Made by a program: the position numbers and the translations under genes
NCBI RefSeq assembly: GCF_015351245.1
Contig: NZ_JADKSO010000002.1
Coordinates: 62,001 to 126,000 of the forward strand
DNA: 64,000 nucleotides
Origin: Rathayibacter sp. VKM Ac-2879
Lineage (GTDB): Bacteria; Actinomycetota; Actinomycetes; Actinomycetales; Microbacteriaceae
Direction: 5' to 3'
Shown: positions 47,062-58,947 of the stretch, piece after piece
Layout: the number at the start of each line of letters is the position of its first letter
How positions within the stretch are numbered: the first letter of the stretch is position 1
The notes under the pieces: generated by a model
What the model was told of the DNA's origin: nothing
The model's input: the letters and a program-made list of their open reading frames with translations, nothing else
Databases searched by the model: none

Positions 47062-47118
47062 GGCCCCCGCGGTCTCCCGAGCGGAGCGGCGACGGCGGTG
47101 CCTGGGAGGCGGCGGATA

Positions 47119-48672
47119 ATGGTGACCATGCCTTCCGTCCGTGCTCTCCCGTCGTCGCTCCTGCGCCCGCGCCACTTCGACCGCGATGACGTCGTCGTGC
47201 ATGCGGGCCTGTTCTCGCTGGTGAACTCGAGTACGACGCCGCGGGCCGCGTGGACTGAGGATCTCGTCGCTCTCGGCGAGGTGCTCGACGCCGCCGAGTT
47301 CCCCTACCGCCTCATCCGCGGGAGCGACGGCTCGCCGTTCCTCGCGGTAGACCGGGCGCTCGGCGCCGAGCTCGCGACCCTGCTCGCGCGCGCCTTCGCG
47401 ACCGAGCCCTTCTACGCGAAGACCCTCGACAAGCGCGGCACCCCGGCTCAGCTCCTCGCGGAGGGAGTGCTCGCGCCCTACCCGCGCGCCTCCGTGTTCA
47501 AGCTGTTCCGCCCGCGGGTCTCCTCGACCGGCTCCCTCCGCTACGGCGCCCGCAGCGGCGTGCGTCTCGAGCTGTGGAAGGTGGGGGAGGACGAAATCCT
47601 CACCCCGGCCGAGAACGCGCTCATGCGCAACCGTCTCCCCGTCGCCGAGGCGATCGACGCGCACGTCGAGGCGTACGGCCGCACCTGGCCGACGTTCGAG
47701 GGCATGTTCGAGCCGCTCGTCAGCGACATCCGCTTCGACGTGGACATCGTCTTCTCGTGGGTCGACGGCACCGATCTCGAGTTCCAGCGCGCTCGCGCCG
47801 CCAGGATGGCCAGCTATGTGGTCGGCGAGGGGGACGACGCCCCCGCGCGCTTCCGTCAGATCGACGAGCTCAAGTACGCGTTGCGCAGCGTCTACATGTA
47901 CGCGCCGTGGATCCGCCACATCTACATCGTCACCGACTCCCCTCGCCCGCACTGGCTCGACGAGCACCCCGACGTCACGCTCGTGCGCAGCGAAGACCAC
48001 TTCCGCGACCTGTCGGTGCTGCCGACCCACAATTCTCATGCGGTCGAGAGCCAGCTGCACCGCATCCCCGGCCTGTCGGAGCACTTCCTCTACTCCAACG
48101 ACGACATGTTCTTCGGTCGACCCATCGACCCGTCGATCTTCTTCTCGCCCGGAGGCGTCACCAAGTTCATCGAGGCGACGACGCGCATCGGCATGGGCGA
48201 CTCCAACGCCGCCCGCAGCGGCTTCGAGAACGCCGCCCGCGTCAACCGTCGCCTCTTGCGCGAGCGCTTCGGAGCGATGACCACCCGCCACCTCGAGCAC
48301 GCGGCAACGCCGCTGCGCAAGAGCGTCATGGCCGAGCTGGAGGCGGAGTTCGAGCCCGAGTTCACGGCGACCGCCGCGAGCCGCTTCCGCTCCGCGAGCG
48401 ACGTCTCCGTCACCAACTCGCTCTACCACTACTACGCGCTGATGACGGGGCGCGCGGTCGTGCAGGAGAACGCCTCCGTGAAGTACGTCGACACGACGAT
48501 GCACCAGGGGCTGAAGGACATGCGCAAGCTGCTGAAGAACCGCCACGTCGACTTCTTCTGCCTCAACGACGGCAGCTTCCCCGAGATCTCGGCGGAGGCG
48601 CGCACCAAAGCCGTCATCGGCTTCCTCGAGGAGTACTACCCGATCCCGGCGCCGTGGGAGCGCGAGGCCTGA
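47119..48672 (+). CDS. Stealth family sugar-phosphotransferase
   Basis: A 517-residue protein with the four Stealth regions: CR1 VDIVFSWVDGTD (about residue 211), CR2 RFRQIDELKYALRSVYMYAP to PRPHWLDEHP, CR3 with EHFLYSNDDMFFGRP, and CR4 near the C-terminus (DFFCLNDG). Stealth enzymes transfer sugar-1-phosphates to make phosphoglycan capsule or wall polymers and resemble human GlcNAc-1-phosphotransferase. ATG at 47119 follows GGGAGGCGG; 47128 is an alternative. Confidence 0.93.
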   Translation: MVTMPSVRALPSSLLRPRHFDRDDVVVHAGLFSLVNSSTTPRAAWTEDLVALGEVLDAAEFPYRLIRGSDGSPFLAVDRALGAELATLLARAFATEPFYAKTLDKRGTPAQLLAEGVLAPYPRASVFKLFRPRVSSTGSLRYGARSGVRLELWKVGEDEILTPAENALMRNRLPVAEAIDAHVEAYGRTWPTFEGMFEPLVSDIRFDVDIVFSWVDGTDLEFQRARAARMASYVVGEGDDAPARFRQIDELKYALRSVYMYAPWIRHIYIVTDSPRPHWLDEHPDVTLVRSEDHFRDLSVLPTHNSHAVESQLHRIPGLSEHFLYSNDDMFFGRPIDPSIFFSPGGVTKFIEATTRIGMGDSNAARSGFENAARVNRRLLRERFGAMTTRHLEHAATPLRKSVMAELEAEFEPEFTATAASRFRSASDVSVTNSLYHYYALMTGRAVVQENASVKYVDTTMHQGLKDMRKLLKNRHVDFFCLNDGSFPEISAEARTKAVIGFLEEYYPIPAPWEREA

Positions 48673-51269: not shown

Positions 51270-51749
51270 ATGGCAGTCCCCGAGGTGTGCGTCGTCTACG
51301 TGCTGCGCGAGGGTGCCCGCGGCACCGAGGTGCTGCTGGGCCGCAAGCGCCGTGGTCTCGGCGAGGGGCGCCTCGTCGCTCCCGGCGGCAAGCTCGAGCC
51401 GGGGGAGTCGCCGGCGCTCGCCGCCGTCCGCGAGCTCGAGGAAGAAGCGGGTTTGCTCGCGCTCCCCGAGGATCTCGAACCGCGTGGCGTGCTCGACTAC
51501 TCCTTCCCCTCCCGACCCGCGTGGAGCCAGCGCTCGCACGTGTTCCTCTGCCGGCGGTGGAGCGGCGAGGTCCGGGAGTCCAGCGAGCTCGCCGCGGAGT
51601 TCGTGCCGGTCGACGAGGTGGTGTTCGAGCAGATGTGGGACGACGCGCGCCTCTGGCTCCCATCCGTATTGCGCGGCGGTCCCCCGGTGCACCTCGCGTT
51701 CGAGTTCGGCGCCGATCTCGCGACCGTGGTGCCACCTGCCACCGGCTGA
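51270..51749 (+). CDS. Nudix hydrolase (8-oxo-dGTPase-like)
   Basis: A 159-residue Nudix protein with the complete box GGKLEPGESPALAAVRELEE followed by EAG, and an LGRKRRGLGEGRLVAPGGKL approach typical of MTH1/MutT-like members. GGAGGGAGG precedes the ATG. It diverges from the M20 peptidase gene. Confidence 0.92.
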   Translation: MAVPEVCVVYVLREGARGTEVLLGRKRRGLGEGRLVAPGGKLEPGESPALAAVRELEEEAGLLALPEDLEPRGVLDYSFPSRPAWSQRSHVFLCRRWSGEVRESSELAAEFVPVDEVVFEQMWDDARLWLPSVLRGGPPVHLAFEFGADLATVVPPATG

Positions 51750-51818
51750 ACCGGCACTGCTGACCGCGCGGGCGCCTTCTCGGGCCGAGGGCCGTCGCGA
51801 GATCAGTGAGGGTGGGGT

Positions 51819-53261
51819 CTAGACGACGGCGCCTGCGACGAGAAGAGCGAGCAGCGAGACCACCGAGGCGATCGAGAGCGTCAGCGAGTACGCCTTGAAG
51901 GTGCCGCGCACGCTCAGGCCGAGGACCGACTTGAACAGCCAGAAGGCGTTCGCGTTCACCATTCCGAGCAGGAGCGCGCCGGAGCCCGCCGCGAGCGCGA
52001 TGAGGGCCGGGTCGACTCCGAGCACCGGGATCAGGGGCGCGACGATACCCGCGGCCGTGAGGGCGGCGGTCGACACCGAGCCGATGGCGGCGTGCAGCAC
52101 GGCAGCGATCAGCCAGGTGAGGAGGATCGGTGACAGCGAATGGCCGTCGAACACCGAGGTGAGGGCCTTCGCCGCTCCCGTGCCGCCGACGACCGCCGCG
52201 AGGCTCCCGCTCACTCCGGTGAGGATGATCACCGGGCCGGCCTGCTTGAGGGCAGAGGCGAGCGCGGTCGAGACGACGCCCGCAGGGAGCGTGCGCAGAG
52301 CCGTGACGTAGGCGAGGACGAGGCCCGCGAGCAGCGCGATGTGGGCGTCGCCGAGAAACTGCAGCACGGGCGCGTCGATCGAGACGAGCTGCGTGAGCGA
52401 GTTCGCGGCGATGAGCAGGAGCGTGAGGGCGATCGGAGCGATGGCCCAGCCGAGCGGGACCCGGGGAGCGGTGGCGGTGGCGACCGCGGTGGCGACGGCC
52501 TCCGCGCGGCGGGCGGAGGCGGTGGACCCCTTGGGGTCTTCGTCCGCGGCGAGGGCCAGATCGGGCGCGGCTGACCCCCCGTTCGCTTCGGCGGCGGTGG
52601 CGGCCTCGCTCACGGTCGCATCGAGGTCGCGCGCGTCGTCCCAGCCGCCCCGCTTCACGATGACGCTGAAGACGAGGACGGTGACGACGATCGTGACGAT
52701 TCCGAGCGGGGCGCCGATCGCCAGCATCGACGGGAGCGAGGCTCCGGTGATCCCCGCCGTCGCGAGCGCGGCCGCTCCGGGCACGACGAAGACGACTCCG
52801 ACGATCATGCCCGCGATGGAGGATCCCGCGAGCAGGCCGTACCCTCTCGGTCCCATGCCGCGGGAGGCCAGACGCGTCAAGGGCGCGCTCATCACGACGA
52901 GCACGTCCGAGTAGATGGAGGGGAACGCCACGCCCAGCGTCAGCGCGTACGCGACGGGAAGTCCGCGCCGTCCGAACCTCGCCACCAGCCAGCGGGCGAG
53001 GAGGGGCGCCACGCCCAGCGCGTCCAGGAGCGCGCCCAGGAGCAGGCCCAGCGCGATGAGGAGGCCGATGTCGCCGAGCACCGAGCCGAAACCCGAGGTC
53101 ATGGTCGTCACGGTGCCCTCGCCGCCCTGCCCGGTGATCACGCCGAGCCCGAGAGCCGAGACGAGCAGGGCGATGACGGGCTCGACTTTGACGACCACGA
53201 CGAGTGTCACGACGACGACGATGGTCAAGGCTATGGCGACGACGGGCCAGTAGTCGATCAC
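51819..53261 (-). CDS. GntP-family gluconate:H+ symporter-like permease
   Basis: A 480-residue membrane protein with about twelve helices. Characteristic blocks are IYSDVLVVMSAPLTRLASRG, GLLAGSSIAGMIVGVVFVVP, LHAAIGSVSTAALTAAGIVAP and GMVNANAFWLFKS, all GntP/DsdX-type. A charged loop of about 90 residues (AATAAEANGGSAAPDLALAA) interrupts the middle. The GTG at 53261 is chosen; reading further upstream gives non-membrane sequence. Substrate gluconate-like, unproven. Confidence 0.88.
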   Translation of the reverse strand: MIDYWPVVAIALTIVVVVTLVVVVKVEPVIALLVSALGLGVITGQGGEGTVTTMTSGFGSVLGDIGLLIALGLLLGALLDALGVAPLLARWLVARFGRRGLPVAYALTLGVAFPSIYSDVLVVMSAPLTRLASRGMGPRGYGLLAGSSIAGMIVGVVFVVPGAAALATAGITGASLPSMLAIGAPLGIVTIVVTVLVFSVIVKRGGWDDARDLDATVSEAATAAEANGGSAAPDLALAADEDPKGSTASARRAEAVATAVATATAPRVPLGWAIAPIALTLLLIAANSLTQLVSIDAPVLQFLGDAHIALLAGLVLAYVTALRTLPAGVVSTALASALKQAGPVIILTGVSGSLAAVVGGTGAAKALTSVFDGHSLSPILLTWLIAAVLHAAIGSVSTAALTAAGIVAPLIPVLGVDPALIALAAGSGALLLGMVNANAFWLFKSVLGLSVRGTFKAYSLTLSIASVVSLLALLVAGAVV

Positions 53262-53717
53262 GGGAATCCACTCTTCTCTCGGTGGCGATCGCTCGAGGAC
53301 TCGGCGAGGAGGGCTGAACTCTATCGATTCGTCGGAGCTGCGCACTACCCATGCGACACAATTCTTCATCCCTGTCGACGATGTTGCTCCGTGCCGAGGC
53401 TGTGCTAGTTTCTCAGTGCTCATTCGGTCGGGGAATCGAATCAGCTCGGGGAACGACGGCCGTCCGGGGAAACGGTCCTTTATCGTTGATCGCGCGCCGA
53501 GACGAGGCGCTCGATCTCCGTTGTGCGCGCTTTCGTCGAAGAGGGGACACCGGGTGGATCCGACTTTGTCGATGGCATCGGTATCGACGAAGTCGAGGGA
53601 GTCGGAACGACGCAAGTGCGGCTCATCGCGTCGTCGACGGACCGCCTCGTCCGTGACGATCGTCGCGGACGAGGCGCCCCCTCCGCATTACCGCTCATCA
53701 TCACGAGAAGGAACGAC
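53262..53717. other. Promoter region between gntP-like gene and the YrdC cluster
   Basis: About 450 bases without a convincing gene, between divergent genes. It must contain the promoters of both. Composition is slightly less GC-rich near 53340-53430. I see no clear palindrome, leader peptide or riboswitch. Confidence 0.5.
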
Positions 53718-54359
53718 ATGACCGCCACGATCATCGATGCGAACGATCTCGACGCCCTGCGTCGGGTGGGGGAGGATCTCCGGGACGGGGCGACCGTCAT
53801 CGCGCAGACCGACACCAATTACGGGGTCTTCGCGAGTCCCTTCTCGAAGAGTGCGTGCGAGCGGCTGTATGCCATGAAGAAGCGCGACGGAGCGAAGCCG
53901 CTGACGCTGTTCCTGTCGACTCCCGCCGACTGGGTCACCTGGGCCCATGCGCCGCAGGGGATCGACATGGATCGGCTGGTCTCGGCATTCTGGCCCGGCC
54001 CGCTCAACGTGATCCTCGAGAAGAAGCCCGTCGTACCCGAGTGGGTCACCTCCGGCCAGTCGACCGTGTCGGTCGTGCACAACCTCAGTGCGCCGATCAA
54101 CCTTCTCTCGATCTTCAGCGGGCTCCCGCTCGCCGCGACCTCCGCCAACATCAGCGGGACGGTGTCCACAGGGCTCGTCGACTTCGATCTCGCTCTCGAG
54201 CATCTCGGTCGTGACACGGACTACATCGTCCGGAGCGGGCAGGTCCCCGAGTCGACCATGAGCAGCACGATCATCACGCTGGTGGGCACTCCGACGGTCG
54301 TCCGTCAGGGTGACCTCAGCGCCGAGGCCCTGCGCCGGGTGGTGCCGACCCTTGTCTGA
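53718..54359 (+). CDS. YrdC/Sua5-domain protein, cluster member 1
   Basis: A 213-residue protein consisting of a YrdC-like domain: GATVIAQTDTNYGVFASPFS, then ERLYAMKKRDGAKPLTLFLS (the K-x-R basic loop of Sua5/YrdC), SAFWPGPLNVIL and LAATSANISG, the conserved SANxSG motif. Sua5/TsaC enzymes form threonylcarbamoyl-AMP from threonine, bicarbonate and ATP. This copy lacks the Sua5 C-terminal domain, departs from the housekeeping TsaC sequences, and heads an operon with an exporter and an oxygenase, so a biosynthetic rather than tRNA-modifying role is likely. AAGGA precedes the ATG. Confidence 0.85.
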   Translation: MTATIIDANDLDALRRVGEDLRDGATVIAQTDTNYGVFASPFSKSACERLYAMKKRDGAKPLTLFLSTPADWVTWAHAPQGIDMDRLVSAFWPGPLNVILEKKPVVPEWVTSGQSTVSVVHNLSAPINLLSIFSGLPLAATSANISGTVSTGLVDFDLALEHLGRDTDYIVRSGQVPESTMSSTIITLVGTPTVVRQGDLSAEALRRVVPTLV

Positions 54360-55560
54360 GCGGACGCTGCCGGCACCGCAGCGGGCCGCTGGAGCTGCGC
54401 TCGTCACGGCGTACCGCGTGGTGTCGCGCGCCTACTTCCACCTCCCCGTGGTCGCCGTCTTCCTCCTCGCGCAGGGCTATTCCGTGGTGGCCGTAGCCTT
54501 GCTCCTCGCGCTCTACGGAGTCGTCGCCGCGCTCGCCGACGGACCTCTGGCCCCGGTGACGCGTCGGCTCTCCTCGGCGGGAGCCCTCGTCGCGGGCGAG
54601 GCCGTGAAGGTGGTCGGCCTCGTCCTTCTCGTCTTGAGCGTCGACCCGGTCGCCGTCCTCCTCAGCCAGGTGCTCGCCGGCTGCGGGTTCGCCCTGACCG
54701 CGGGGCGCGACGCGGCTCTCGCGTCCTCGCTGCGCGGCGGAGGGGATGCGCGCGCTCAGGAGAGCGGCGTGCAGAGCGGGATGTTCCTCGCGTCCTTCAC
54801 GGCCGGGGTCCTCGGCGCGATCTCTCTGACGGTATGGGACCGGCTGCCGTTCCTCCTGAGCGCGATCGTCTCGACCGTCGCGCTCGTCCTCGTCCTCGCT
54901 TCGCGCCTCCCGGTGCGCGAGCAGGAGGCGCGCGCCGCGACCCGTTCGCGAGCTCGGCCCGTCGGACTCCCCGCGACCATCCGATTCTGGTCGCTCTACT
55001 ACTCCGTCAACAGGGCGCTGCTCCTCGCCGCATACACCTTCCTCATCCCGCTCCTCCTGTTCTCCGAGCTCCGGCTCTCTCTGCCCGCCTTCGGAGCGGT
55101 GCTCGGCCTTTACACCCTCGCGGGCCTTCTCGCCGCTCGATTGTCGCCGCTCGTCGCGGGAAAGCCTCTCGTGTTCTGGCTCACGGCCTCGGCGCAGATC
55201 GTGGGACTCGCGTTGATGACCTTCGGCGTCCTCGGTGCGGCGATCGCCGGCCTCGCGCTTCTGGGAATAGCGGGAGGATTCGTCCGGCCGGCGACGATGA
55301 TCACGCTCGCCCCGGCGATGGACGCTCTCGACGATCGAGCGCGAGTGGCCGTCATGAGAGGCCTGGAGCGCCATCAGGGAATCCTGCAGGCCGTGCTCCT
55401 GGTGGGAGCGGGAATCGTCGTTGCCGCAACGGGGACGACCGCTTTGACAATGACGGCATATGTCGTTCTCGCCGTGATTGCGCAAGTCGTCGGCGCTATT
55501 CTCATTCTCGGTCCAGAGAGGCGCAAAAGGCGTCTCTCGACCGTTTCCGTGACAGAGTGA
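54352..55560 (+). CDS. MFS transporter, probable product exporter
   Basis: A 402-residue membrane protein with about twelve helices; recognisable MFS features are the FHLPVVAVFLLAQGYSV first helix region and RRKRRLS tail. The start is probably TTG 54352, overlapping the YrdC stop by eight bases; no ATG or GTG lies in a better position. As the only transporter of the cluster it is the natural exporter of, or immunity factor for, the product. Confidence 0.8.
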   Translation: MSERTLPAPQRAAGAALVTAYRVVSRAYFHLPVVAVFLLAQGYSVVAVALLLALYGVVAALADGPLAPVTRRLSSAGALVAGEAVKVVGLVLLVLSVDPVAVLLSQVLAGCGFALTAGRDAALASSLRGGGDARAQESGVQSGMFLASFTAGVLGAISLTVWDRLPFLLSAIVSTVALVLVLASRLPVREQEARAATRSRARPVGLPATIRFWSLYYSVNRALLLAAYTFLIPLLLFSELRLSLPAFGAVLGLYTLAGLLAARLSPLVAGKPLVFWLTASAQIVGLALMTFGVLGAAIAGLALLGIAGGFVRPATMITLAPAMDALDDRARVAVMRGLERHQGILQAVLLVGAGIVVAATGTTALTMTAYVVLAVIAQVVGAILILGPERRKRRLSTVSVTE

Positions 55561-55617
55561 CATATCGGGAGAAGCGGTCGACATCGACCGCTGACTCCCT
55601 CGACAAGGAGAGAAGAC

Positions 55618-56625
55618 ATGCAACCCATCTACACGTTCTCCGATTCCGATCGGAAAGATCTCCACGATTCCCTGCTCGCGATCGATCTCGATCCCTATAA
55701 GGACTACGACCGGTTCCGCGATGCGATCACGGCCCTCATCGACAGCGGTGCCGTGCCGCAGGGATTCGTCGACGCCCTCGCTCGCATCCGCCGCGAGCGC
55801 GCCGACAAGATCACCTATGCGCACCTGATCGCCAACAATCCCGTCGACGACGAGATCCCGTGGCTCGACCAGGACGACGCCCTCGCGGACAAGTACCGCA
55901 AGAAGCTCACCTTCGTGGGCGAGGGACTGCTCGAACTGCAGTCGCAGTACCTCGGTTCGCCCTTGTTGGCCTACGCGACCCGCAACAACGGCGACTTCTT
56001 CCAGGACGTCTATGCCGACAACCGTTTCTCGGGCACTCAGACCCAGAAGACCGACGGCGAGCTGTACTGGCACAACGAGCGCACCGCGCACCCCGTGCGC
56101 GCCGACTTCATCTCGCTCCTGGGGCTGCGTACGCCCGAGACCGACCTGGTCTACACGAAGTACGTCGACGGCCGCGAGATCCTCCGCTTCATCTCGCCCG
56201 AGAACCAGGCGCTCCTGCGCGAGGCGGTCTACATCACCCCGTTCGACGAGCTCTCGAAGGCGCAGAACAAGAACCAGATCGTCTCCGAGCAGCACGCCCT
56301 GCTCGAGAACGAGCACAGCTTCCGCTATTACGACACCCGCACCGTGCCGGCGGACCCGGACGACATCGTCCACTACCGCGCGCTCTGGCAGTTCCGCGAC
56401 GCGCTCTCGAAGGTCAACGAGCAATACCACCGCATCCGTGACGCGGAGCTCCTCATCATCGCGAACCAGGACGGTCTGCACAGCCGTCAGCTCGTCGACG
56501 TCCAGGACCGTGAGAAGACCCGCTTCCGCTGGCTGCTCAAGACCTACTCGTTCCGCGACAGTGCCACCTCCGACCGACACTCCGACTACTGGCTCGACGG
56601 CGTCCGCGGCCGGGTCAAGGACTGA
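55618..56625 (+). CDS. Clavaminate-synthase-like Fe(II)/2-oxoglutarate oxygenase
   Basis: A 335-residue non-haem iron oxygenase. The metal triad is visible as His152-x-Glu154 (YWHNERTAH) and the distal His288 (QDGLHSRQ), followed by Arg302 or Arg304 for 2-oxoglutarate. The H-x-E form rather than H-x-D, and the ERTAHPVRADFISLLGLR segment, are those of the clavaminate synthase/VioC/AsnO group, which hydroxylate or desaturate free amino acids, often arginine or asparagine. An AGGAGAG-type ribosome site lies before the ATG. Third gene of the cluster. Confidence 0.85.
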   Translation: MQPIYTFSDSDRKDLHDSLLAIDLDPYKDYDRFRDAITALIDSGAVPQGFVDALARIRRERADKITYAHLIANNPVDDEIPWLDQDDALADKYRKKLTFVGEGLLELQSQYLGSPLLAYATRNNGDFFQDVYADNRFSGTQTQKTDGELYWHNERTAHPVRADFISLLGLRTPETDLVYTKYVDGREILRFISPENQALLREAVYITPFDELSKAQNKNQIVSEQHALLENEHSFRYYDTRTVPADPDDIVHYRALWQFRDALSKVNEQYHRIRDAELLIIANQDGLHSRQLVDVQDREKTRFRWLLKTYSFRDSATSDRHSDYWLDGVRGRVKD

Positions 56626-56640
56626 GAGAAAGGAAACACC

Positions 56641-57138
56641 ATGGTCGATCTCACACGAGGGGTCCCGCCCCACCCGCTCGAGTTCCTTCCGCCTGTCGCG
56701 CCGCTCGAGGTCGGCAGCGACGACGTCACCGACGGCGCCGAGCTCGCCGAGGCCCAGCGCGGAGGCGACACCAGCCCCGCCCTGCGCTGGTCGCCGGGCC
56801 CGGAGGGGACCGCCTCCTACGCCGTGACGGTGTTCGATGCCGACGCACCCACCCTCGGCGGCATCTACCACTGGGTGCTCGTCGACATCCCGAGCACGGT
56901 CACCGAGCTGCCGGCGGGGGTGACGGACGTCGGACGCCCGGCCCGCAACGACCTCGGCACGACGACCTTCGTCGGCGCCGCGCCGCCCCCGGGGGACCGG
57001 CCGCACCGCTACCTCTTCACGGTGCATGCCCTCCAGGCGGAGTCGCTGCCAATCGACGAGCAGACGCCCGCTGCGCTCGTGGGCTTCCACCTCACCGTGA
57101 ACACGATCGCCCGCGGGTCGATCACCGCGACGGCCTGA
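56641..57138 (+). CDS. YbhB/YbcL-type phosphatidylethanolamine-binding-protein (PEBP) homologue
   Basis: A 165-residue PEBP protein: SPALRWSPGPEGTASYAVTV, FDADAPTLGGIYHWVLVDIP (the D-D-A-P and HW pocket motifs) and RYLFTVHAL near the C-terminus. It begins 15 bases after the oxygenase stop, with GAGAAAGGAA as ribosome site. PEBP proteins bind phosphate-containing ligands; a catalytic or protective role in the cluster is unknown. A very strong hairpin follows. Confidence 0.9.
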   Translation: MVDLTRGVPPHPLEFLPPVAPLEVGSDDVTDGAELAEAQRGGDTSPALRWSPGPEGTASYAVTVFDADAPTLGGIYHWVLVDIPSTVTELPAGVTDVGRPARNDLGTTTFVGAAPPPGDRPHRYLFTVHALQAESLPIDEQTPAALVGFHLTVNTIARGSITATA

Positions 57139-57144
57139 GCGCCT

Positions 57145-57202
57145 CGACCGGGCGCGCGCACCCGGCCGGCCCGATGGCCGGCTCCGTGCGCGCGCCCGGT
57201 CG
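57145..57202 (+). terminator. Very long hairpin closing the cluster
   Basis: CGACCGGGCGCGCGCAC (57145-57161) and GTGCGCGCGCCCGGTCG (57186-57202) are perfect 17-base complements, and the 24-base interior contains CCGGCC/GGCCGG forming a second stem. It follows the PEBP stop by six bases and precedes the second YrdC gene by 100 bases. No U tract. Confidence 0.85.
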
Positions 57203-57302
57203 GCACGAGCGGGGGAGCTCCAGCCGCCCTGACGGCATGGGCTAGGCTTCCGCACGGCCAGGGCCGAGCCCATGGCGTTCTGGACACCACGAAAGGGAAA
57301 GA

Positions 57303-58082
57303 ATGACCAGCACGAGCGTGATCGAGTGGCGTGAGCAGACTCCCGCGGAGGCGGTGGAGGCGCTCGCCGCTCCCGGCGGGCTCGTCGTGTGCGCCACCAA
57401 GGTCGGCTACATCCTCATGACCACCGACGGCGCCGGCCTCGAGCGCAAGTTCTCGGCCAAGCAGCGCAACCGCAACAAGCCCGGCGTCGTCCTCTGCTCG
57501 AGCATCGAGCAGCTGACCGAGCTGGCCGAGCTCAACGACGAGATCCTGGCGTTCTACCAGGCGCACTGGGACCAGGACATCCTGCTCGGCTGCATCCTCC
57601 CGTGGAAGCCGGAGGCCGTCGACCTGATCGACGAGGACGCCCGCGAGCTCGTGCGCGACGGACGCGGCACCAGCTGCTTCGTCATCCGCTTCGGCCGCCC
57701 GGCCGAGCAGCTCGTCACCACCCTGTGGGAGCAGAGCCGCACCCTCACCTTCGCGAGCTCCGCCAACCCCTCGGGCGTCGGCAACCGCGGCCGCGTCGCC
57801 AACATCGGCGAGCGGATCGAGAACGAGGCCGACATCATCGTCGCCGCCGACGGCTACGTCGCATCGATCCAGCCGGACAAGGACGAGGAGTCGCGCCACG
57901 AGCAGGGCGTCATGGTCTCGATGGTCGACGCCTCCGGCGCGCTCGTCCCGGCGCAGGGCGGCCAGCGCTCGATCACGCCCGGCCCGGTGCTCATCCGTCG
58001 TGGCCTCGACTACGAGCGCATCATGGTCAACCTCGCCGAGCACTTCACCTCGTGGGACTACCGCCAGGGCGAGTACTACTGA
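57303..58082 (+). CDS. YrdC/Sua5-domain protein, cluster member 2
   Basis: A 259-residue YrdC-like protein: GGLVVCATKVGYILMTTDGA, KFSAKQRNRNKPGVVLCSS (K-x-R loop in KQRNRNKP) and LTFASSANPSGVGNRGRVAN with the SANPSG motif. It is clearly divergent from both cluster member 1 and housekeeping TsaC. AAAGGGAAAGA precedes the ATG. It is separated from the cluster by a terminator but lies next to it on the same strand. Likely makes an aminoacyl- or carbamoyl-adenylate; substrate unknown. Confidence 0.85.
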   Translation: MTSTSVIEWREQTPAEAVEALAAPGGLVVCATKVGYILMTTDGAGLERKFSAKQRNRNKPGVVLCSSIEQLTELAELNDEILAFYQAHWDQDILLGCILPWKPEAVDLIDEDARELVRDGRGTSCFVIRFGRPAEQLVTTLWEQSRTLTFASSANPSGVGNRGRVANIGERIENEADIIVAADGYVASIQPDKDEESRHEQGVMVSMVDASGALVPAQGGQRSITPGPVLIRRGLDYERIMVNLAEHFTSWDYRQGEYY

Positions 58083-58166
58083 TCCCGTCGACACGCTGAC
58101 ACCGGCGACGCCGGCGCTCGGAGGCGACTTCGCCTCGACGCCGGCGTTCGTCGTCCCCTGCGTCGG

Positions 58167-58805
58167 CTACAGCTCCAGGACGTCCCCGGGGGCCAGGGCG
58201 TGGTACTCGCCGCCGCCCTCGCGCGTCGCCCAGCCGAGGCGGTCGTGCGCCAGGGAGACCCCCGCCTCCGACAGCACGCGCTCGTGGGTGGCGAACGCGT
58301 GGCGCGGGGCCACGTCGAGGACGAAGTCCATCGCCTCCGCGATCTTCATCCACGGCGCTCCCGCCGGTGCGGCCAGTACGTCGACGTCGATTCCCGTGGG
58401 GATCGTGAACGAGTCCCCCGCGTAGTAGAGCCGAGCGTCGACGAGCACGCCCACGTTGTCGACCACGGGAATGGTCCGGTGGATCACCGCGTGTCGCGAG
58501 CCGAAGAACCGCAGTTCGAACGGGCCCACCCTCACCACGTCGCCCTCGGCCACCGTCTCGACGTCGAAGCCGTGCGCTGCGGCGGCCACTCCGGCCGGTC
58601 CGAAGATGCGGAGGGAGGGATTCGCGGCCCGCAGGCGCTCGAGCTGCTCGGCGGTCCAGTGGTCGGCGTGCTCGTGGGTGATCACCACCGCGACAGTGGC
58701 ACTCGTGCCCTCCACGGGGCGAGTGAAGGAGCCGGGGTCGAGGACGAGCCGCGCGCCCGCCTCCTCGACAAGGACGGTCGCGTGCTCGAGTTTCGTCAGT
58801 CGCAT
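58167..58805 (-). CDS. MBL-fold metallohydrolase
   Basis: A 212-residue beta-lactamase-fold protein of the UlaG/YtnP-like group: LEHATVLVEEAGARLVLDPG, ITHEHADHW (zinc ligands H-x-H-x-D-H), YYAGDSF and a late FATHERVL with the final His. Hydrolase of unknown substrate. Convergent with the YrdC gene. Confidence 0.9.
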   Translation of the reverse strand: MRLTKLEHATVLVEEAGARLVLDPGSFTRPVEGTSATVAVVITHEHADHWTAEQLERLRAANPSLRIFGPAGVAAAAHGFDVETVAEGDVVRVGPFELRFFGSRHAVIHRTIPVVDNVGVLVDARLYYAGDSFTIPTGIDVDVLAAPAGAPWMKIAEAMDFVLDVAPRHAFATHERVLSEAGVSLAHDRLGWATREGGGEYHALAPGDVLEL

Positions 58806-58947
58806 GGCGTCGAGCTAAGCGCGCGACTCCGCGCCTGGCAAGCGGGAAGGTCGAGCGGGGGAGGCCCGGGGGTGCCCAGTCCGCGCTCGCCGCCCGATTT
58901 GCATCCCCGGCAATCGATGTGCCACACTCTTCGAGTTGCAAAAACGC

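Follow-up and report, generated by a model that had tools for sequence, protein, structure and literature searches.

Does a YrdC-type protein encoded beside a transporter and an amino-acid oxygenase serve a small-molecule pathway outside tRNA modification? The question is raised by five genes at positions 53718..58082 of a 64,000-nt stretch of DNA from the plant-associated Rathayibacter sp. VKM Ac-2879 (NZ_JADKSO010000002.1:62,001-126,000, forward strand), here termed the window, in whose coordinates all genes are given. They encode two YrdC proteins (YrdC1 and YrdC2), a major facilitator superfamily (MFS) transporter, an Fe(II)/2-oxoglutarate oxygenase, and a phosphatidylethanolamine-binding protein (PEBP) homologue. 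To our knowledge, no process other than synthesis of the tRNA nucleoside N6-threonylcarbamoyladenosine (t6A) is known to activate amino acids with bicarbonate and ATP. We tentatively propose, at a probability of about 0.42, that YrdC1 activates an amino acid other than threonine for an exported product and that the oxygenase is a variable add-on.

Organization of the Gene Cluster

The cluster is made up of the following features.

53718..54359, + strand: YrdC1, 213 aa, single-domain TsaC-like protein of the "DTN" clade; PF01300 (Sua5_yciO_yrdC) 121.4 bits (cut-off 25.1)
54352..55560, + strand: MFS transporter, TTG start, 402 aa, "YRxxSRxYF" subfamily; MFS_1 39.2 bits
55618..56625, + strand: Fe(II)/2-oxoglutarate oxygenase, clavaminate-synthase-like, 335 aa; TauD 27.3 bits (cut-off 27)
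56641..57138, + strand: PEBP (YbhB/YbcL-like), 165 aa; PBP (PF01161) 111.8 bits; TIGR00481 97.5 bits (cut-off 57.75)
57139..57215, + strand: GC-rich hairpin closing the four-gene unit, 77 bases, predicted RNA fold
57303..58082, + strand: YrdC2, 259 aa, SMU.1377c-type; Sua5_yciO_yrdC 41.5 bits

An open reading frame (ORF) check and Pfam searches within the window bore out the ORFs and positions of the initial annotation, including the 8-base overlap of the YrdC1 and MFS genes and the gaps of 57 bases (MFS to oxygenase) and 15 bases (oxygenase to PEBP), and placed all five genes on the + strand. YrdC2 had been described as divergent. This holds for its sequence but not for its orientation: the gene, which starts 164 bases past the end of PEBP, is transcribed in the same direction as the other four. 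The strong hairpin noted after PEBP is also predicted, with 30 pairs and a minimum free energy of -63.1 kcal/mol for the native sequence alone. It has no T-run on its 3' side and is thus not a textbook intrinsic terminator. YrdC2 is probably a separate gene behind the hairpin with its own transcription unit.

Comparison of the window with Rathayibacter tanaceti gave ratios of nonsynonymous to synonymous substitution rates (dN/dS) of 0.21 for YrdC1, 0.18 for MFS, 0.12 for the oxygenase, 0.26 for PEBP, and 0.15 for YrdC2, and of 0.15 and 0.16 for two flanking genes. The five genes are under purifying selection and therefore are not chance ORFs.

Relationship of YrdC1 to TsaC/Sua5 Enzymes

By alignment, YrdC1 shares with the TsaC/Sua5 L-threonylcarbamoyladenylate (TC-AMP) synthases the PF01300 domain, the K-x-R and S-x-N motifs, the T/S/R residues, and a TsaC-type Thr before S-x-N. 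Passages of PMC10321239 assign ATP binding to K-x-R/S-x-N and threonine binding to the T/S/R residues, treat the Thr as a TsaC signature, and describe a Sua5 His that binds the threonine hydroxyl. Mapped onto these residues, YrdC1 keeps K54xR56, S142xN144, T31, S182/S183, R196, and T141. It has N34 in place of Val and F65 at the position of Sua5 His67. The alignment suggests that the chemistry is intact and the side-chain pocket changed, and we propose YrdC1 as a candidate amino-acid N-carboxy-adenylate synthase.

Unlike TsaC/Sua5, YrdC1 scores below the cut-off of the NCBIfam TsaC equivalog TIGR00057 (101.8 versus 123.2 bits) and lies in a separate clade. In a tree of 34 rows, which included 3 of the 55 plasmid records matching YrdC1, the YrdC1 proteins of the window, R. 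tanaceti, and genome G264 group with proteins of Staphylococcus aureus, Skermanella mucosa, and Halobellus (support 99/97; 98% of 200 bootstrap trees). All six clade members have the sequence D-T-N (T33-N34 in the window), whereas T-V is found in all 28 other sequences compared; YrdC1, with T-N instead, does not match the T-V-Y-G substrate loop of those 28. Within the clade, the Skermanella and Halobellus proteins have Ser for T31, and the Halobellus protein lacks the SS pair. Three public records (Halobellus, Skermanella, and S. aureus) label DTN-branch proteins as L-threonylcarbamoyladenylate synthase, so that the branch is easily overlooked.

The best solved matches to YrdC1 are TC-AMP synthases. 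YciO matches far more weakly (E 7.6e-05), and assignment of YrdC1 as a YciO protein was rejected for this reason. Also rejected was a TobZ-like carbamoyltransferase, as the 213- and 259-aa YrdC proteins carry PF01300 only and no fused catalytic domain. The carbamoyl-adenylate enzymes TobZ and HypF, which contain further domains, use carbamoyl phosphate, whereas YrdC1 is a single 213-aa domain. A YrdC-type domain at work outside tRNA modification, as proposed for YrdC1, is nevertheless described for both enzymes in passages of PMC10321239.

Neither YrdC protein had looked like the housekeeping enzyme in the initial annotation, and the scores below the TIGR00057 cut-off and the separate clade of YrdC1 are in keeping with this view. 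R. tanaceti has three PF01300 genes, the third of which is of the T-V-Y-G type; it adjoins a group-4 glycosyltransferase gene and lies near the genes for ATP synthase subunits A and C. Because of this third copy, neither cluster YrdC is likely to be the essential TsaC, a conclusion that extends to the window itself by inference from R. tanaceti, and the possibility that one of the two is the essential enzyme was rejected on the same ground.

YrdC-MFS Linkage in Other Organisms

Linkage of YrdC and MFS genes recurs in three phyla, in Rathayibacter, S. aureus, and Skermanella. In S. aureus CP052031.1 (L065 4821-8198) a LysR gene and LeuA-like, YrdC, MFS, and PEBP genes lie between clpB and fabH. 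As in the window, a same-clade YrdC is followed by a homologous MFS and then by a PEBP-family gene; unlike the window, a LeuA-like gene takes the place of the oxygenase, and the record contains no YrdC2 match. The S. aureus LeuA-like protein, like that of Streptomyces, has no match in the window (tblastn, 1e-4). Although CP052031.1 bears a plasmid label, its clpB, fabH, and fabF genes make a chromosomal origin probable. The order in Skermanella is adenylate-forming enzyme, YrdC, HlyD, and MFS, with the MFS gene one gene from YrdC.

The S. aureus and Skermanella MFS proteins are homologous to that of the window (25 and 28% identical, respectively), with 46 invariant columns in an alignment of five rows. 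Searched against 72,556 plasmid records, the Skermanella MFS matched only itself and the S. aureus cassette (E<=1e-5), and the S. aureus MFS matched itself alone. A further run of YrdC, GCV_T, MFS, and aminotransferase genes is found in the actinobacterial genome G768 (L140 6664-10982), with an MFS 34% identical to the window's. A radical SAM/B12 gene lies near this run. Whether PEBP is a common third member of the cassette is uncertain from the sequences compared.

We recognized no paper in the open-access literature on the function of the S. aureus LeuA-like-YrdC-MFS-PEBP operon. Its LeuA-like gene is, we presume, the same gene as SAUSA300_0879. Disruption of the leuA-like SAUSA300_0879 raised the minimum inhibitory concentration of linoleic acid, according to a passage of PMC10019231. 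Passages of PMC7448277 report that a mutant in the LysR gene SAOUHSC_00913, downstream of clpB, was depleted only in kidneys in a mouse infection screen and that leuA2 was among the genes changed in expression, apparently upwards, on SAOUHSC_00913 induction. SAOUHSC_00913 would correspond to the clpB-side LysR gene of the CP052031.1 locus and leuA2 to the LeuA-like gene of the YrdC-MFS operon.

The Oxygenase and Its Relatives

The H-x-E metal motif recognized in the initial annotation is present in the oxygenase as H152-N153-E154, and six aligned homologues all have H152 and the distal H288. R. tanaceti and genome G222 share H-x-E with the window; three plasmid homologues have H-x-D. The best solved relatives by PDB profile are 6daw, arginine and lysine hydroxylases, and asparagine oxygenase. 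Among NCBIfam equivalogs, GntD (51.2 bits, cut-off 345), Cs1 (38.1, cut-off 450), and VioC (31.9, cut-off 418.6) all match far below their cut-offs. Together, the PDB profiles and these sub-cut-off models support the earlier placement of the protein as a putative member of the free-amino-acid (arginine/lysine/asparagine) hydroxylases. With VioC, AsnO, lysine 3-hydroxylase, and clavaminate synthase it shares profile matches over the core, the H-x-E/D motif, and the distal His, but it reaches no equivalog cut-off.

Homologues 37-52% identical to the oxygenase are encoded on plasmids of Streptomyces NBC_01003, Staphylococcus epidermidis (pML7049-5), and Vibrio halioticoli and in genomes G222, G331, and G638. 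Five of these six loci, all but that of Vibrio, carry LeuA-like, isochorismatase, FAD/NAD(P)-binding (PF13454 shown for G222), and aminotransferase genes, and in the stretches fetched, LeuC with LeuD, a cupin, a LysR-type regulator, and an MFS gene are each present in four of the five. In these five (G222, G331, G638, NBC_01003, and pML7049-5) the oxygenase is homologous over its full length (39-52% identical), but, unlike the window, the fetched stretches contain no YrdC1, PEBP, or window-MFS match. The LeuA-like/aminotransferase/isochorismatase/oxygenase cluster is an assembly in its own right that recurs in actinobacteria and on the S. epidermidis plasmid (L010, at G222:C1:372000-391999, L138, L139, L002, and L003). 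No named product of it was found in the open-access literature, and none of the R. tanaceti PF00682 genes is a close relative of its LeuA-like gene.

The sixth locus, on the V. halioticoli plasmid, encodes a nonribosomal peptide synthetase (NRPS) module, MFS, LysR, LeuC, LeuD, and an ATP-grasp-like protein. There (L004 3959-14836) the oxygenase relative lies between the NRPS module and the MFS gene, followed by an 844-aa protein and LysR-LeuC-LeuD; the double ATP-grasp-like label of the 844-aa protein was read from the look of its sequence.

Site and Distribution of the Island in Rathayibacter

Three further features mark the site at which the cluster is inserted.

51270..51734, + strand: NUDIX-like gene, left edge of the insertion site by site comparison; labeled by sequence appearance
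51819..53243, - strand: GntP-family permease, other end of the insertion; PF02447 188.9 bits; start codon chosen by us
58167..58805, - strand: metallo-beta-lactamase-fold gene, right edge of the insertion site; PF13483; present in 15/15 genus genomes

The site is flanked by an M20/NUDIX-like pair on one side and by the metallo-beta-lactamase-fold gene on the other. Besides the window, three of the 15 Rathayibacter genomes sampled have genes of the cluster at this site; in the remaining 12, the 11-12 kb fetched at the site held no match to the five families at E<=0.05. R. tanaceti VKM Ac-2596 (G001) has all five genes in the same order plus the GntP permease, which has no counterpart at E<=1e-10 in any of the 16 loci compared except those of the window and R. 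tanaceti. Identity between these two is 92% for the oxygenase, 90% for YrdC2, 80% for YrdC1, and 71-77% for MFS.

In a tree of four joined flanking proteins the window groups with G001, G264, and G222 (support 99/100) and lies outside (G001,(G264,G222)), the G264/G222 pair having support of 85/80. This tree is most simply read as a single acquisition of the whole set, after which genes were lost. Because the oxygenase and YrdC2 are more alike between the window and R. tanaceti than are YrdC1 and MFS, the oxygenase may instead have been gained later.

Among 299 Microbacteriaceae genomes the oxygenase was found in two, G001 and G222, and a phylum-wide sample of 396 genomes gave three with it, G001 again included; six of the 15 genus genomes belong to the family sample, and the other nine were examined for the oxygenase at the island site only. 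YrdC1 at >75% identity and PEBP at >70% identity are each found in 2 of the 15 genus genomes, all 15 of which have a PEBP of ~50% identity. YrdC2 is present in 3 of the 15 and, at E<=1e-30, in 16 of 199 Microbacteriaceae. For the window MFS, a scan of 396 genomes of the order that scored no more than four candidates in each gave at least two genomes with relatives.

Among the 20 largest of at least 60 families of direct repeats across the island, matches were only weak and GC-rich, and none marked insertion borders convincingly. Viral cargo was rejected, as viral contigs held no relatives of the oxygenase, the DTN YrdC, or YrdC2, and plasmid cargo was rejected, as positions 51600-58900 had no near DNA match in plasmids. 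Beside the site, at 47098-48669, the window encodes a Stealth-family protein (CR1-CR4) that is matched in 15/15 genus genomes.

YrdC2

The nearest solved relative of YrdC2 is SMU.1377c (PDB 3l7v, E 8.7e-100). YrdC2 scores below the TIGR00057 cut-off (42.6 versus 123.2 bits), is not matched by YciO at 0.01, and is 60-64% identical to proteins on Rhizobium and enterobacterial plasmids. The neighbors of its relatives vary, both on plasmids (five of eight records examined) and in Microbacteriaceae (10 proteins, 7 of 11 fetched loci). The seven Microbacteriaceae loci have no partner common to all; GatB recurs in two of them (L051 and L054). From these contexts YrdC2 appears to be a co-traveling, independent, and mostly stand-alone family. 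At L047 and L048, YrdC2 relatives adjoin T5orf172/DUF4041 and Schlafen-type helicase genes, families often found in phage or defense regions.

Proposed Function of the Cluster

We suggest that the island is a horizontally variable small-molecule cassette with a core of the non-housekeeping YrdC1 and its linked MFS transporter, in which PEBP is a possible partner, the oxygenase would be a clade-specific add-on, and YrdC2 would be a separate stand-alone family traveling with the island. From a non-threonine amino acid, bicarbonate, and ATP, YrdC1 would form an N-carboxy-aminoacyl adenylate, and trapping of this adenylate would give a carbamate, urea, or cyclic carbamate. Passages of PMC9654439 report that TC-AMP decomposes within minutes to AMP and threonine isocyanate. 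The same intermediate formed from another amino acid would supply a carbamoylating species. The oxygenase may hydroxylate a free amino acid before or after the YrdC1 step, possibly giving a ring-closing hydroxyl group, and such a hydroxyl could trap the amino-acid isocyanate arising from a TC-AMP-type intermediate. A second amine could be an alternative trap, which would yield a urea. The MFS transporter would export the product. The gene content, clade, aligned residues, YrdC-MFS linkage, and occupancy of the site are observed, whereas each chemical step, the direction of transport, the order of gains and losses, and the product, including the carbamoylated or adenylate-derived amino acid suggested in the initial annotation, are inferred. 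The impression in the initial annotation that no pathway with this set had been described agrees with the open-access literature, in which we found none.

The proposal is favored by the DTN clade (99/97), the retained catalytic residues together with the changed pocket, the recurring YrdC-MFS linkage and the plasmid matches of the Skermanella and S. aureus MFS proteins, a YrdC1 remnant in G222, the dN/dS values, the third PF01300 gene of R. tanaceti, and the reported breakdown of TC-AMP to an isocyanate. Several observations weigh against it. The five genes had been taken as one set, but they are not a conserved unit: only the window and R. tanaceti carry all five among the genomes searched, so that a five-gene conserved operon was rejected, and relatives keep differing subsets. 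The G264 site has YrdC1-MFS-YrdC2 without oxygenase or PEBP. The G222 site has MFS-PEBP-YrdC2, with MFS directly adjoining PEBP, and no intact YrdC1; a 24-codon match to the YrdC1 C terminus (62.5%, E 5.7e-4) just upstream of MFS indicates that YrdC1 was formerly present there. No YrdC1 match was found in the stretches fetched at the six loci of the oxygenase's other relatives, the predicted oxygenase structure has a mean pLDDT (predicted local distance difference test) of 46.6, and the island encodes no obvious carbamoyl-accepting partner enzyme. The linkage evidence is also uneven. The Halobellus DTN YrdC has no annotated MFS within 6 kb, and the G768 YrdC is of the T-V type and outside the DTN clade. 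An MFS profile found R. tanaceti (G001) alone among 246 phylum genomes, and the window and G768 MFS proteins have no matches among the plasmid records. The S. aureus and window PEBPs, although both PF01161, do not match by BLAST at 1e-3. Finally, the YrdC tree has long branches, whose joins may be false according to a warning from the tool.

Alternative Explanations

The main rival to a role for YrdC1 in amino-acid activation is that YrdC1-MFS, oxygenase-PEBP, and YrdC2 are separate functions assembled at one permissive site and that the oxygenase, presumably like its relatives, simply produces a hydroxy-amino acid. We regard such a mosaic as unlikely, though still a serious contender. The differing losses between relatives, the varied contexts of YrdC2 relatives, the presence of oxygenase relatives in other clusters, the hairpin that sets YrdC2 apart, and the higher window-R. 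tanaceti identity of the oxygenase and YrdC2 (92 and 90%) than of YrdC1 and MFS (80 and 71-77%) all fit it. It sits less well with the 8-base overlap and 15-57-base gaps, which suggest that the first four genes are co-transcribed, with the recurrence of YrdC-MFS linkage in three phyla, or with the flank-gene tree, which is compatible with a single arrival of all five genes and losses later.

Alternatively, the extra YrdC proteins could be a self-protection or bypass device that keeps t6A synthesis or another YrdC-dependent step running despite a threonine-like hydroxy-amino acid made by the oxygenase or a neighbor, with the MFS pumping the hydroxy-amino acid out. In its favor are the resemblance of beta-hydroxy amino acids to threonine, the TsaC catalytic residues that YrdC1 retains by alignment, and the presence of two extra YrdC genes plus a transporter. 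YrdC1, however, lies outside the 28 other sampled rows and has changed side-chain positions, which would be odd for a spare TsaC, and the S. aureus locus and G264 have YrdC-MFS without an oxygenase. We consider this explanation improbable.

Least credible is a role of YrdC1 and YrdC2 on RNA or protein with the MFS and oxygenase adjacent by accident. For it, passages of PMC12506659 credit E. coli YciO, a paralogue within PF01300, with weak TC-AMP activity and a suspected role on RNA, suggested to be in rRNA metabolism. Against it, YrdC1 is closest to solved TC-AMP synthases and distant from YciO (7.6e-05), YciO does not match YrdC2 at 0.01, and the MFS linkage recurs across phyla.

Implications

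A broader extension of the proposed YrdC1 function is doubtful but worth stating. DTN-type YrdC proteins might be stand-alone enzymes of a new class that N-carboxylate/adenylate amino acids and work with a dedicated "SRxYF" MFS exporter. In several phyla, and through the S. aureus operon among others, they might make carbamate-, urea-, or oxazolidinone-type amino acids for export, and swappable partners (oxygenase, LeuA-like proteins, or ketosynthases) would set the substrate. If YrdC1 does activate a non-threonine amino acid, a conserved non-tRNA YrdC branch tied to a transporter would represent a new way of making carbamates or ureas from free amino acids. Such a branch would also offer an entry point to the little-studied operon of S. 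aureus, which lies beside a LysR gene whose mutant, according to passages of PMC7448277, was depleted in kidneys.

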